Assembly (NCBI RefSeq): GCF_003448965.1
Contig: NZ_QRGC01000001.1
Coordinates: 248,001-312,000 of the forward strand
Source of the DNA: Oceanicella sp. SM1341
Lineage (GTDB): Bacteria; Pseudomonadota; Alphaproteobacteria; Rhodobacterales; Rhodobacteraceae
Direction: 5' to 3'
Length of the DNA stretch: 64,000 nt
The position numbers and the translations under genes were made by a program. The number at the start of each line of letters is the position of its first letter. The first letter of the stretch is position 1. This document shows, in pieces, positions 26,380 to 32,068 of this stretch. The notes under the pieces were generated by a model. The model was given only the letters and a program-made list of their open reading frames with translations, ran no database searches and was not told where the DNA came from.

Positions 26380-26847
26380 TTACCAGGAATTGTAGCCTAG
26401 GTACTTGCCCGACATCTCGATCTTCACCCGGTCGCCCTTGGGGTTTTCCACCCGGGTCACGCTCATGTCGAAGTCGATGGCCGACATGATGCCGTCGCCG
26501 AACTTCTCGTGGATCAGCGCCTTGATGGTGGGACCGTAGACACCCACGATCTCGTAGAGCCGGTAGATGCAGGGGTCGGTGGGCACGGCCTGGGTCCAGA
26601 TCTTGGTCGGGCTCTCGGCCAGCACCGCCGCCGCCTCCTGCGGCAGGCCGAGCACGCGCACCATCAGCTCCGCCTTCTCGGCCGGAAAGGCGTTCATCCC
26701 CATCGCCGCCGAATGCGTCCAGACCGGCGACATGCCGATCTGCGCCGCGATCCCCTCCCAGGTGAGCCCGGCCTGCTTCTTGGCCGAGAGGATAAGCGCC
26801 GTCACGTCTTCCTTGGTCAGCTCGTCCGTCATCGTGATGTCCTTCAT
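26380..26847 (-). CDS. cynS: Cyanate hydratase (cyanase)
   Basis: 155 residues. It converts cyanate plus bicarbonate to ammonia and CO2 and forms a cytoplasmic decamer. With the start at 26847 the catalytic residues fall at the E. coli positions: R96 and E99 in IYRLYE and S122 in GIMSAIDF. An internal ATG at 26832 also has a good ribosome site (AAGGA, 7 nt), so the start is not certain. It is the last gene of a leftward operon after a nitrate/cyanate-type ABC transporter, with 25 bp to the ATPase stop. Ammonia from cyanate would serve as nitrogen source or cyanate would be detoxified. Confidence 0.95.
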   Translation of the reverse strand: MKDITMTDELTKEDVTALILSAKKQAGLTWEGIAAQIGMSPVWTHSAAMGMNAFPAEKAELMVRVLGLPQEAAAVLAESPTKIWTQAVPTDPCIYRLYEIVGVYGPTIKALIHEKFGDGIMSAIDFDMSVTRVENPKGDRVKIEMSGKYLGYNSW

Positions 26848-26872: not shown

Positions 26873-27763
<891 letters not shown>

Positions 27764-27771
27764 GCTGCCCC

Positions 27772-28605
27772 CTATTCCGCGTAGGCCACGGCGCGCTGCA
27801 ACACGCCGAAGGCCGCGTCGAGCGCCATGCCCACCACCCCGATCATCAGGATGGAGAAGATGACGGAGGTGAGGTCGAGGTTGTTCCACTCGTTCCACAC
27901 GTAGTAGCCGATGCCGGTGCCGCCCACGAGCATCTCGGCCGCCACGATCACCAGCCAGGCGATGCCGATGGAGATGCGCATGCCGGTGACGATGGTGGGG
28001 GCCGCCGCCGGCAGGATCACCGTGAAGGCGGTGCGCAGCGGGCCCAGCTCATGCGTGCGGGCCACGTTCACCCAGTCCTGCCGCACGCCGGCCACGCCGA
28101 AGGCGGTGTTGATCAGCATCGGCCAGATCGAGCAGATGAAGATCACGAAGACCGCGCTCGCCTCGCTGTCCTGGATGATGAACAGCGCCAGCGGCATCCA
28201 GGCCAGCGGCGAGATCGGCCGCAGCACCTGGATGAACGGGTTCAGCGCCCGGTAGGCCACCGGCGACATGCCGATGAGAAACCCCAGCGGGATCGCCACC
28301 AGTGCGGCGAGCGCGTAGCCCGCCAGCACCCGGTAGATCGAGTAGCCGATCTGGATGCCGATGCCCTTGTCGTTCGGCCCCGCGTCGTAGAACGGGTTCG
28401 AGAGCTGCTCCCAGGCCTTCCCGAGCACCTGCGAGGGCGGCGGCACCCCGGCCTTGGGCGCGCCGCCGCCGGTGAGCTTCTCGTATTCGGTGAGCTCGGC
28501 CCCGCCGCCGCCGCCGGCGGCGATCGAGACCTCCCAGGCCAGCAGGCCCGCGATCAGCAGCAGCACCGAGAGCAGCGCCGCGCGCTGGTTGAGCGAGAGC
28601 CGCAT
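27772..28605 (-). CDS. Nitrate/cyanate-type ABC transporter permease (CynB/NrtB-like)
   Basis: 277 residues with about six membrane helices and the inner-membrane coupling motif (EAA loop) in VARTHELGPLRTAFTVILPA, typical of the BPD_transp_1 family. The N-terminal helix (AALLSVLLLIAGLLAWEVSI) is followed by a glycine run (AAGGGGGAELTEYEKL). The ATG at 28605 has AAGG six bases upstream; the frame is open further, but that part is arginine-rich shadow sequence. It lies between the substrate-binding protein gene (1 bp away) and the ATPase gene. Confidence 0.93.
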   Translation of the reverse strand: MRLSLNQRAALLSVLLLIAGLLAWEVSIAAGGGGGAELTEYEKLTGGGAPKAGVPPPSQVLGKAWEQLSNPFYDAGPNDKGIGIQIGYSIYRVLAGYALAALVAIPLGFLIGMSPVAYRALNPFIQVLRPISPLAWMPLALFIIQDSEASAVFVIFICSIWPMLINTAFGVAGVRQDWVNVARTHELGPLRTAFTVILPAAAPTIVTGMRISIGIAWLVIVAAEMLVGGTGIGYYVWNEWNNLDLTSVIFSILMIGVVGMALDAAFGVLQRAVAYAE

Positions 28606-28606
28606 C

Positions 28607-29977
28607 TCAGACCTTCCGGATCTCGAAGCTCTCGACATAGGCCTCCGGCGCCGAGGGGTCGAAGGTCTTGCCCATGATGGTGTGCGAGCGGTAGGTCTCC
28701 GCCGGCGCCTCGTAGCCGAGGTCCTCCATGATCTTGCGGCAATCGGCGGCGAGGTAGACCTGTTCGGCCACGCCCTTGTAGTCGACATCGCCCTCGATAT
28801 AGCCCCAGCGCTTCATCTGGGTGAGGATCCACACGCCCATGGAATGCCAGGGGAAGGGGTCGAAATCGATGCGGTCGGGCACGTCCTGCACCTCGCCGAG
28901 CCCGTCGGCGAAACGCCCGGTGAGCACCTGCTCGATCACCGGCACCGGCTGGTTGAGGTAGTTCGTCGGCGCGATCGCCTCGGAGATCTCCTTGCGGTTC
29001 GCGGGGTCCGACGCATACTGCGTGGCGTCCACGATCGACTTCAGCAGCGCGCCGTAGGTGTTGGGCAGCTCGGTGGCAAAGCTCAGCGGGGCGGCGAAGG
29101 CGCAGCAGGGGTGGCCCTCCCAGATCTCCTTGGTGAGCACGTGGATGAAGCCGATGTTCTCCCACACCGCGCGCTGGTTGAACGGGTCGGGCGAGAGGTA
29201 GCCGTCGAGGTTTCCGGCCCGCAGGTTCGCCACCATCTCCGGCGGCGGCACCACGCGGATCTGGATGTCCACGTCCGGGTCCAGCCCGTGCTCGGCCACG
29301 TAGTAGCGCAGCAGGAAATTGTGCATCGAGTATTCAAAGGGCACGCCGAAGGTGAAGCCCTTCCACTGTTTCGGGTCGCGCTTGTCGAGATGCTCGTTGG
29401 ACAGCACGATGGCCTGGCCGTTGATGTTCTCCACCGCCGGCATGATGTAGGGTTCGGCCACCGAGCCCGCGCCCAGCGTCATCGCCAGCGGCATCGGGGT
29501 GAGCATGTGGCTCGCGTCATACTCGCCGTTGAGCGACTTGTCGCGCGCCACCGCCCAGCCGGCGGTCTTGATCACCTGCGCGTTCAGCCCGTATTTCTCG
29601 TAGAAGCCCATGGGCTGGGCCATGATGATCGGCGTGGCACAGGTGATGGGCACGAAGCCGATGTTCAGGTCGGCCTTCTCGGGCGTGCCCAGCGTGTCGA
29701 GGATGGCGGCCTTCGCCTTCTCCAGCGGGAAGACCGAGGCCAGCGCCGCGGCCACCGTGCTGCCGCCCACCATGCCCATGAACGAGCGGCGCGAGACGTC
29801 CGAATGCCCGAACATCGAGCGCACCACCGCGCTCTCCACCGCCCGCTCGAGCATCGCCTCGCTGTTCGGGGCCACGGCCTCGGCCGCATCGGTGCGGCAG
29901 CCCTCGCAGCCGCAGGCGGCGCCGTGGCGCAGGTCGGTCTTGGCGGTGAACGGATTCCCCAGGCTCCTGATCGGCAT
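28607..29977 (-). CDS. NrtA/CmpA-family substrate-binding protein, Tat-exported (CynA-like)
   Basis: 456 residues. A long N-terminal lead of about 60 residues with a cysteine cluster (C22, C24, C27 in ACGCEGCRTD) precedes a twin-arginine signal (SRRSFMGMVGGSTVAAALAS). The binding domain starts at LNIGFVPITCATPIIMAQ, the usual opening of nitrate, bicarbonate and cyanate binders. Export by Tat suggests folding or cofactor loading in the cytoplasm. It is first in the cyanate operon. AAAGGA precedes the ATG. The 213-bp gap to the divergent regulator holds the likely operator. Confidence 0.9.
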   Translation of the reverse strand: MPIRSLGNPFTAKTDLRHGAACGCEGCRTDAAEAVAPNSEAMLERAVESAVVRSMFGHSDVSRRSFMGMVGGSTVAAALASVFPLEKAKAAILDTLGTPEKADLNIGFVPITCATPIIMAQPMGFYEKYGLNAQVIKTAGWAVARDKSLNGEYDASHMLTPMPLAMTLGAGSVAEPYIMPAVENINGQAIVLSNEHLDKRDPKQWKGFTFGVPFEYSMHNFLLRYYVAEHGLDPDVDIQIRVVPPPEMVANLRAGNLDGYLSPDPFNQRAVWENIGFIHVLTKEIWEGHPCCAFAAPLSFATELPNTYGALLKSIVDATQYASDPANRKEISEAIAPTNYLNQPVPVIEQVLTGRFADGLGEVQDVPDRIDFDPFPWHSMGVWILTQMKRWGYIEGDVDYKGVAEQVYLAADCRKIMEDLGYEAPAETYRSHTIMGKTFDPSAPEAYVESFEIRKV

Positions 29978-30134
29978 CGGATGTCCTTTCCCTGTTGTCT
30001 CGGTGTTGTTGCCTCCAAGCCTAGCGAGGCCCGCACCGGGGGTGCAAAGCCTTCCGCCTGTCAGGGAAAGCCACCTAAAGCTCTGTAATTGCGTACTTTC
30101 CCTGCCGTCGAGCCTTGCCAGAATTTACGCTATC

Positions 30135-30147
30135 TCGTAATTTACGA
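30135..30147. promoter_or_regulatory. Candidate operator of the cyanate locus
   Basis: TCGTAA-T-TTACGA, a perfect 13-bp palindrome. AATTTACG occurs inside it (30139-30146) and again 17 bp upstream (30122-30129), and a looser copy (TGTAATTGCGTA) lies near 30084. It sits between the divergent ABC operon and regulator gene, about 44 bp before the regulator start. Confidence 0.5.
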
Positions 30148-30190
30148 AATATCGTTGCGCGCCCGCCCGCTGCACCGCACACTTGCCCGC

Positions 30191-32068
30191 ATGAGCCTCT
30201 CCGCCGATTCCGTCCTTGCCCTGCACCCCCTGCCCGCGCTGCTGGTCGACCCCGCGGCAGACCGGGTGACGGCCGCGAACCGGCTGGCGGAGCGGCTGTT
30301 CGGCGGCCCGCTGGTGGGCGCCTCCTTCCTCGGGCGGCTGGAGGATGGCGCGGCCGATCTCATCGTGTTCGCCGACGCCGTGGCGCATTACGGCCGGCAC
30401 TGGACCCGCAGCCTCACCTACCGCCGGCTCGACGGCCGGCGCCTCTCCTGCGAGACCCGCGCCACGATGACAGACTGGCCCGACGGCCCGCGCCTGCTGA
30501 TCTCGCTCATCGACCTGGGCGAGATGGAGGCCCATGCCCAGGAGGCGGAGGCGGCCGACCTGCTGCGCTCCGGCCTGCTGGAGTGGAAGCGCGCCCAGGC
30601 CTTCTTCTCCGAGCTCGAGCGCCAGAACCAGCTCATCCTCAACGCCGCCGGCGAGGGCATCTACGGCATCAACGCCGATGGCAAGACCACCTTCGTGAAC
30701 CGCGCCGCACAGGAGATGCTGGGCTGGGCCGCGGAAGACCTGCTGGGCCGCGACACCCATGCCATCATCCACCACCACCACCTCGACGGTGCCCGCTACG
30801 ACCACCGCGACTGCCCGATCTACCATTCCTTCCGCCACGAGATGGTGGCCCGGGTGGAGGACGAGGTGTTCTGGCGCAAGGACGGCCGGCCGATACAGGT
30901 GGAATACGTCTCCACCCCGATCTACGACAACCAGGTGCTGGCCGGCGCCGTGGTGATCTTCCGCGACATCTCCGAGCGCAAGGAGAGCGAGCGCCGCCTG
31001 CGCGAGGCGCTGGCCGAGGTCGACGCCCTGCGCGACCGGCTGGAGCAGGAAAACGCCTACCTGCTGGAGGAGATCACCTCCGAGCGGGCGCATTACGACA
31101 TCGTCGGCGCCTCGCCCGCCGTGGCGCGCACGCTCGCACAGGTGGAGCTGGTGGCGCCCACGGACGCGAACGTGCTCATCACCGGCGAGAGCGGCTCGGG
31201 CAAGTCGCTCACCGCCACGGCGGTGCACAAGGCGAGCCTGCGCGCCCGGCGCCCGCTCATCCGGCTCACCTGCTCGGCACTGGGCCACGAGGATGTGGAG
31301 AGCGAGATCTTCGGCCACGCCCGCCGCGCCGCCCGGGGCCTGATGAGCGACAGGGCCGGCAAGATCGAGCTCGCCAGCGGCGGCACCCTGCTGCTCGAGG
31401 ACGTGGGCGAGCTGCCGCTCGAGGTGCAGGGCCGGCTGGTGACCGTGCTGCGCGACCAGGCGGTGGTGCGCCTGGGCGAGGAGCGGCCGCGCCGGGTCAA
31501 CCTGCGCATCATCGCCTCCTCCACCCGCGACCTCGCGGCCGAGGTGGCGGCGGGGCGCTTCCGCGAGGATCTCTACTTCTTCCTCAACGTCTTCCCCATC
31601 CCGCTCACGCCGCTGCGCGAGCGTATCGAGGACATCCCCCTGCTGGTGGCGCATTTCCTCGAGCTCGCCTGCCGGCGCTTCAACCGCCCCCGCCCGGTGC
31701 CCACGCAAGGCACCATCCGGATGCTGTCGGAGTATCACTGGCCGGGAAACCTCCGCGAGCTGCGCAACGTGATCGAGCGCGCGGTGATCGTCTCCACCGG
31801 GGGCAAGCTGCGGGTGGAGGCGATGGCCCTGCCCGGCCCCGCGCCCGCCCGCCCCGCCGCCGGCCCGCGCCCGCTCACCGAGGAGGAGATGCGCACGCTG
31901 GAGCGCGACAACCTGCTCGCCTGCCTGCGCGCCGCCGGCGGGCGCGTCTCCGGCCCGGGCGGTGCGGCGGAGATGATGGGCCTGCGCCCCACCACGCTCT
32001 ACTCCCGCCTGCGCCGTTTCGGCATCGGCCGGGCCGAACTCGCCCCCGAGGCGCGTCACGCGGGCTGA
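30191..32068 (+). CDS. PAS-PAS-AAA+-Fis regulator with degenerate sigma-54 motifs
   Basis: 625 residues: PAS-like region (1-115), second PAS (about 140-262, with HHHHLDGARYDHRDCPIY), coiled linker (263-300), AAA+ domain (303-535) and a C-terminal Fis-type HTH (about 580-612). Walker A is intact (GESGSGKS, 332-339). The GAFTGA loop that contacts sigma-54 is replaced by RAARGL (379-384). The Walker B acidic pair is inverted (LLLEDVG, E403-D404). The second arginine finger is Phe (FREDLYFFLNV, R458 kept, F464). It therefore probably does not act through sigma-54; Rhodobacter NtrC, which also lacks GAFTGA, works with sigma-70. It is divergent from the cyanate operon and likely controls it. Confidence 0.9.
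   Translation: MSLSADSVLALHPLPALLVDPAADRVTAANRLAERLFGGPLVGASFLGRLEDGAADLIVFADAVAHYGRHWTRSLTYRRLDGRRLSCETRATMTDWPDGPRLLISLIDLGEMEAHAQEAEAADLLRSGLLEWKRAQAFFSELERQNQLILNAAGEGIYGINADGKTTFVNRAAQEMLGWAAEDLLGRDTHAIIHHHHLDGARYDHRDCPIYHSFRHEMVARVEDEVFWRKDGRPIQVEYVSTPIYDNQVLAGAVVIFRDISERKESERRLREALAEVDALRDRLEQENAYLLEEITSERAHYDIVGASPAVARTLAQVELVAPTDANVLITGESGSGKSLTATAVHKASLRARRPLIRLTCSALGHEDVESEIFGHARRAARGLMSDRAGKIELASGGTLLLEDVGELPLEVQGRLVTVLRDQAVVRLGEERPRRVNLRIIASSTRDLAAEVAAGRFREDLYFFLNVFPIPLTPLRERIEDIPLLVAHFLELACRRFNRPRPVPTQGTIRMLSEYHWPGNLRELRNVIERAVIVSTGGKLRVEAMALPGPAPARPAAGPRPLTEEEMRTLERDNLLACLRAAGGRVSGPGGAAEMMGLRPTTLYSRLRRFGIGRAELAPEARHAG

Follow-up and report, generated by a model that had tools for sequence, protein, structure and literature searches.

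A Rhodobacteraceae lineage of the cyanate-operon regulator CynF that appears to have left the sigma-54 system

A change of sigma factor is usually thought hard for a regulator, as promoters of the sigma-54 type depend on activators that are driven by ATP. TyrR, VpsR and FleQ (the last in its sigma-70 mode), members or relatives of the AAA+ family considered here, work on sigma-70 promoters. So does VspR, likewise of this family or a relative (PMC10274813). An earlier note on the DNA studied here stated that Rhodobacter capsulatus NtrC lacks GAFTGA and activates sigma-70 RNA polymerase; it is so reviewed in PMC10274813, with the addition that ATP binding is needed and hydrolysis is not. For cyanate utilization, CynF of Pseudomonas pseudoalcaligenes, described as sigma-54 dependent, is essential for cynABDS expression (PMC6627978). 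Neither a sigma-54-type CynF nor an activator without GAFTGA is thus new. Regarding catalysis, work on PspF makes the case that the R-finger proper is R162, with R168 instead supplying the second arginine of an essential RxDxxxR motif; under R168A/K/H substitution, an ATPase activity of 39.5 per min drops to 0.1-0.4 and Km rises to >3 mM, while E43A and N64Q lower the activity ~25-fold (PMC3419264).

The locus described here lies in a window, i.e., the whole stretch of DNA that was analysed, of 64,000 nucleotides from Oceanicella sp. SM1341 (Rhodobacteraceae), which carries the following operon:

28607..29977, minus strand: cynA, substrate-binding protein (NMT1-like) of an ABC transporter
27772..28605, minus strand: cynB, permease, above the NCBIfam nitrate-permease cut-off
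26873..27763, minus strand: cynD, ATP-binding subunit, above the NCBIfam ntrCD cut-off
26380..26847, minus strand: cynS, cyanase

A regulator gene is divergent from cynA-cynB-cynD-cynS in the window, and almost all loci compared have cynF and cynA in divergent orientation. The window protein displays full-length homology to, and groups with, CynFs of other Pseudomonadota, and operator boxes of the form ACG-N6-CGT are common to the window locus and other CynF loci; judged from its sequence, the window regulator is CynF of the ABC-type cyanate operon cynABDS. The earlier supposition that LysR-type CynR would normally control such an operon is not supported, as a divergent Fis-type cynF-cynABDS arrangement was already known (PMC6627978). 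CynF-like regulators with ~40-43% identity are also found on many Acinetobacter plasmids (plasmid records H5-H21).

The gene and its altered parts are as follows:

30191..32068, plus strand: cynF, PAS-PAS-AAA+-Fis regulator of 625 aa, without the sigma-54 contact loop and hydrolysis residues
30236..30514, plus strand: N-terminal PAS-like domain (structure-based prediction only), residues 16-108
30626..30970, plus strand: PAS domain, residues 146-260 (Pfam), better conserved in the ingroup (defined below) than any other part (mean pairwise identity 0.84)
31100..31600, plus strand: AAA+ core, residues 304-470 (Pfam)
31184..31207, plus strand: Walker A GESGSGKS, residues 332-339, with K338 and S339 within
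31325..31342, plus strand: Loop 1, RAARGL at the GAFTGA position, residues 379-384
31397..31402, plus strand: Walker B pair E403-D404 (LLLEDVG) at the D-E position
31562..31564, plus strand: R458, equivalent of PspF R162 by alignment (PMC3419264)
31580..31582, plus strand: F464, equivalent of PspF R168 by alignment (PMC3419264)
31889..32020, plus strand: Fis-type helix-turn-helix, residues 567-610 (Pfam)

Translation and alignment bear out the residues that had been read for the loop, the Walker B pair, position 464, Walker A and R458. The accompanying claim that the second arginine finger is Phe holds for the residue itself (FREDLYFFLN), but F464 aligns with PspF R168, whereas the R-finger proper is argued to be R162, the equivalent of which is kept. 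The RxDxxxR motif and the Walker B D-E of functional bEBPs are incomplete in CynF, and additional losses place S339 at the Walker-A Glu43, T360 at the Glu-switch Asn64 and T445 at the sensor-I Asn positions. As in the R. capsulatus NtrC type, GAFTGA is absent and Walker A is kept. Pfam matches a Sigma54_activat domain (2e-49), the AAA lid and, weakly (23.2 bits, cut-off 22), the Fis helix-turn-helix that had been called as kept. As for the two PAS sensors proposed at the outset, Pfam finds only that at 146-260; residues 16-108 are without a Pfam match, but adopt a PAS-like strand/helix order in an AlphaFold model (pLDDT ~93).

CynF was found in 29 of 395 genomes of the window's family, and a genome scan yielded 80 retained loci (the best at 52-70% identity), with changed residues in 77 of these. 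A single damaged gene is ruled out by the ~100 orthologues with the same losses. For residue counts, the ingroup comprised 90 distinct R168-lacking CynFs, from Rhodobacteraceae where the origin is known, and the outgroup 41 other CynFs. The R168 equivalent is kept in 0/90 ingroup and 41/41 outgroup proteins by alignment, a position that itself defines the two groups, although the ingroup is also a single clade; since it is missing from 90 distinct proteins of one clade and present throughout the outgroup, the pattern is not due to chance. The same contrast holds for Walker-A Glu43 (0/90 vs 41/41). Losses are less complete at the Glu-switch Asn64 (kept in 12/90 vs 41/41, and so lost in 78), at Walker-B Glu108 (30/90 vs 41/41) and at loop Thr86 (6/90 vs 38/41, and so lost in 84), while the Walker-A Lys (K338) and the R162 equivalent (R458) are invariant in both the ingroup (90/90) and the outgroup. 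The survey of the loop and Phe-finger positions that had been suggested thus points to change across the clade at both. The earlier doubt as to whether ATP is hydrolysed is likewise strengthened: because R168 substitutions cripple the PspF ATPase, and R168 and Glu43 are lost in all 90 ingroup CynFs, useful hydrolysis is unlikely by analogy with PspF, with slow hydrolysis still conceivable because the R162 equivalent is kept.

On a tree of 129 proteins (89 ingroup), built by a quick search with SH-aLRT supports only, R168 loss maps as one change with a branch support of 100, in agreement with the proposal that these regulators left the sigma-54 system as a lineage. The state in which R168 is lost and GAFTGA kept requires four changes, and that in which R168 is lost and the loop changed requires five. 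Homologues with intact GAFTGA and arginine fingers were looked for as potential counterevidence; GAFTGA is kept in only 6 of the 89 ingroup proteins (L142, L053, L055, L065, L074 and L087), and all six lack R168. So the sequences suggest that R168 was lost first and that the GAFTGA loop degenerated later, several times; regain of GAFTGA in place of repeated loop decay is formally possible.

Selection on ingroup CynF is purifying, with dN/dS of 0.02-0.28 overall in close ingroup pairs. PAS identity is higher in the ingroup than in the outgroup (0.84 vs 0.66), while AAA+ identity is lower than in the wider outgroup (0.63 vs 0.78), such that the ATPase core has lost some constraint and the sensor has not. 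One might take the many missing conserved catalytic residues, the lowered AAA+ identity and the peak in dN/dS within the window's own genus (0.28 overall, 0.21 in AAA+) as signs that cynF is decaying and functionless. This is scarcely credible, however: the frame is open in ~100 species, synteny and operator are conserved, dN/dS stays far under 1 and PAS identity is high. Lost together are the hydrolysis residues (R168, Glu43 and mostly Asn64) and, as detailed next, the sigma-54 promoter of cynA; kept under purifying selection are the ATP-pocket Lys, PAS sensor, helix-turn-helix, operator repeats and operon order.

The intergenic regions between cynF and cynA (27 outgroup, 88 ingroup) were given a weighted -24/-12 scan (maximum score 15.4), which detected a strong sigma-54 site before cynA in 26/27 outgroup regions (scores of at least 13.4) and in 0/88 ingroup regions (scores of at most 12.4 of 15.4), with none on the reverse strand of the intergenic regions. 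Upstream of cynA in the window, the best score is 11.2 of 15.4 (shuffle p ~0.28). A -24/-12 promoter at this position, named beforehand as evidence that would speak for retained sigma-54 control, is therefore lacking before cynA in the window and in all 88 ingroup loci scanned. The Fisher p of 6e-25 for this promoter contrast ignores shared ancestry, as there is essentially one evolutionary event plus L135 (see below).

The sigma factor itself is also often missing. With PF04963, 29 of the 42 ingroup genomes that carry cynF gave no rpoN match, and 19 of these 29 are at least 95% complete; PF04552 agrees on this absence, except that a few of the 29 score weakly at its borderline, a signal that PF04963 does not confirm. 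All 23 outgroup genomes tested have rpoN. Where rpoN is absent from a genome, CynF there cannot act through sigma-54, and three such rpoN-undetected genomes carry a GAFTGA-retaining CynF (L053, L065 and L087). CynF could in principle still be a sigma-54 activator, with its unusual loop and catalytic residues working well enough, for rpoN is present in some ingroup genomes, including the window's, and six ingroup CynFs keep GAFTGA. Set against the rpoN-less genomes, the 88 loci without a -24/-12 site and the crippling of PspF by R168 and Glu43 changes, this is very improbable, and sigma-54 independence of CynF is strongly supported.

In the window's genome, rpoN sits in its usual housekeeping location, an lptC-lptA-lptB-rpoN-hpf cluster (L174, 4746-9034). 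NtrC of this genome keeps GAFTGA, D-E and the second Arg (L175, 9920-11371 and 6227-7639, both minus strand, NtrC/NtrX; contig C1, just outside the window). An account in which rpoN loss drove the change is thus too simple: CynF of this genome ranks with the most changed, although rpoN is retained and NtrC still bears GAFTGA. It seems more likely that the CynF change preceded rpoN loss. Separately, the NtrX encoded in the same L175 region has its GAFTGA loop deleted, and three more activator-family proteins on other contigs of this genome (L006, L007 and L008/L009) have GAFTGA missing or deleted with the second Arg kept. Outside of the Rhodobacteraceae clade, L135 (genome G634, an assembly flagged as 10% contaminated) has GAYPGA, an intact R168, no -24/-12 site before cynA and rpoN present; this is possibly a second, loop-first departure from sigma-54.

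Candidate cis elements between cynF and cynA in the window are the following:

30144..30155: CynF box 1, ACGATATTTCGT on the minus strand, candidate operator
30127..30138: CynF box 2, ACGAGATAGCGT on the minus strand, 17 bp from box 1, candidate operator
30044..30058, minus strand: possible sigma-54 promoter relic, GG-N11-GC at the ancestral distance, one base too long for sigma-54
30018..30047, minus strand: tentative sigma-70-like cynA promoter TTGCAC-N18-TAGGCT, weak, read directly from the sequence and absent from the consensus scan

The ACG-N6-CGT boxes occur in both groups, usually as three in the outgroup and as two spaced 17 bp apart in the ingroup (82 such pairs in 88 ingroup loci). 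They lie ~35-64 bp before the cynF start codon, from which position CynF probably represses its own gene. CynF may instead have turned into a repressor outright, bound at the two boxes and blocking both cynA and its own gene until a PAS signal arrives; loss of the parts that remodel RNA polymerase is compatible with simple DNA binding, and boxes so close to cynF could occlude its promoter. However, the operator ends ~140 bp (median) upstream of the cynA start codon, and the conserved promoter-proximal block of the ingroup is far downstream of the boxes, towards cynA, a layout resembling an upstream activator site; moreover, the orthologue in Pseudomonas acts as an activator and is indispensable (PMC6627978). 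A purely repressive role is thus unlikely, and by analogy, operator position together with the orthologue favours an activator, a reading of CynF that we hold to be likely.

Distances from operator to -24 element in the outgroup cluster at 57-59, 68-71, 82 and 93 bp, a spacing suggestive of helical phasing. The ingroup carries a GGC...TT element, most often 67-71 bp from the operator, with the GC of the -12 box mostly gone; this element looks like a sigma-54 promoter relic, with an overlapping palindrome, GCCYAAATTTTRGGC, as an alternative cause of its conservation. With respect to a replacement promoter, CTTNNN-N17-19-YANNNT is present near cynA in 35/88 ingroup loci, which are phylogenetically related (shuffles: mean 10.7, maximum 19), and in 1/27 outgroup loci. 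This is a weak pattern, and a consensus sigma-70 promoter scan of the window gave no match.

In many ingroup promoters (e.g., L033 and L034), a palindrome resembling GCCYAAATTTTRGGC keeps a near-fixed spacing of ~57-63 bp to the operator; in the window and its nearest relatives it is indistinct. The same 15-mer is also found upstream of the nifR3-ntrB operon (L170, near 1501) and of a polyamine-type ABC operon (L168, near 1501), and it is perhaps the NtrC site of these bacteria. Exact-pattern genome searches for it returned too few sites to define a regulon. CynF might then be mainly a DNA-bound helper of NtrC, which would itself activate at a sigma-70 promoter; the near-fixed spacing, the shared 15-mer at those two operons and the nitrogen control expected for a cyanate operon all fit, but the palindrome's indistinctness in the window and nearest relatives and its few genomic matches leave this improbable.

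Taken together, the sequences argue that CynF of this clade is probably a sigma-54-independent, non-hydrolysing regulator that activates cynABDS via housekeeping-type RNA polymerase, perhaps with NtrC. Its ancestor would have been a canonical sigma-54 activator, with sigma-54 use ending at the base of the Rhodobacteraceae clade. The PAS domains would sense a cyanate or nitrogen signal, and a CynF oligomer would occupy the two boxes 17 bp apart beside its own gene, possibly binding ATP without useful hydrolysis. Bound in this way, it could activate cynA by contacting either RNA polymerase of the housekeeping (RpoD-type) form or another activator sited between the operator and the promoter, for which NtrC is the probable candidate; repression of cynF itself is a probable accompaniment. 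More tentatively, and with somewhat less than even confidence, we propose a specific history, in which R168 was lost once while GAFTGA and a housekeeping rpoN were in place, the promoter was converted in situ to a housekeeping type at the same distance from an unaltered operator, and the AAA+ domain was retained as a scaffold that no longer hydrolyses ATP, may sense it, and brings about activation through contact.

A search covering part of the literature gave no paper on CynF of Rhodobacteraceae. As far as that search shows, an independent departure from sigma-54 with co-loss in cis and in trans, along with an order of events, is new. Such a lineage would amount to an ordered natural record of a regulator changing its sigma factor, with surviving intermediates, i.e., GAFTGA-bearing CynFs without R168, possible -24 relics and L135, in which the loop is altered, R168 intact and a sigma-54 site missing. 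CynF of this clade, mostly marine bacteria, keeps its sensor, DNA sites and target genes, and control must run another way; cyanate use in marine Rhodobacteraceae would thus be wired differently from the Pseudomonas model. Many "sigma 54-interacting" annotations (e.g., on a Loktanella plasmid) are probably misnamed in mechanism.

Among the closest described systems is cynFABDS of P. pseudoalcaligenes CECT5344, which has the same divergent Fis-type regulator, needed for expression, and the same ABC-transporter/cyanase operon (PMC6627978). There, CynF is described as dependent on sigma-54, and a sigma-54 promoter precedes cynA, whereas the Rhodobacteraceae form is without that promoter, the loop and the catalytic residues; outgroup CynFs of other Pseudomonadota stood in for the P. 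pseudoalcaligenes protein, which was compared by description. NtrC of R. capsulatus and Caulobacter shares with CynF a place among GAFTGA-less members of the AAA+ activator family, sigma-70 promoters and the same bacterial class (PMC10274813). These NtrCs, however, belong to two-component systems as response regulators, and a deletion removed their loop, whereas CynF is a PAS-sensor protein changed mostly by substitutions, with R168 and Glu43 lost first; the NtrC of the window's own genome, unlike published R. capsulatus NtrC, keeps GAFTGA. TyrR, VpsR/VspR and FleQ differ from CynF in having other sensor domains and ligands and unrelated targets, and belong to separate lineages. With PspF and NtrC1, CynF has in common the AAA+ fold, Walker A Lys, R162 equivalent and sensor-II Arg, while the GAFTGA loop, Walker B D-E, Asn64, Glu43 and R168 that these activators carry have been lost from CynF.
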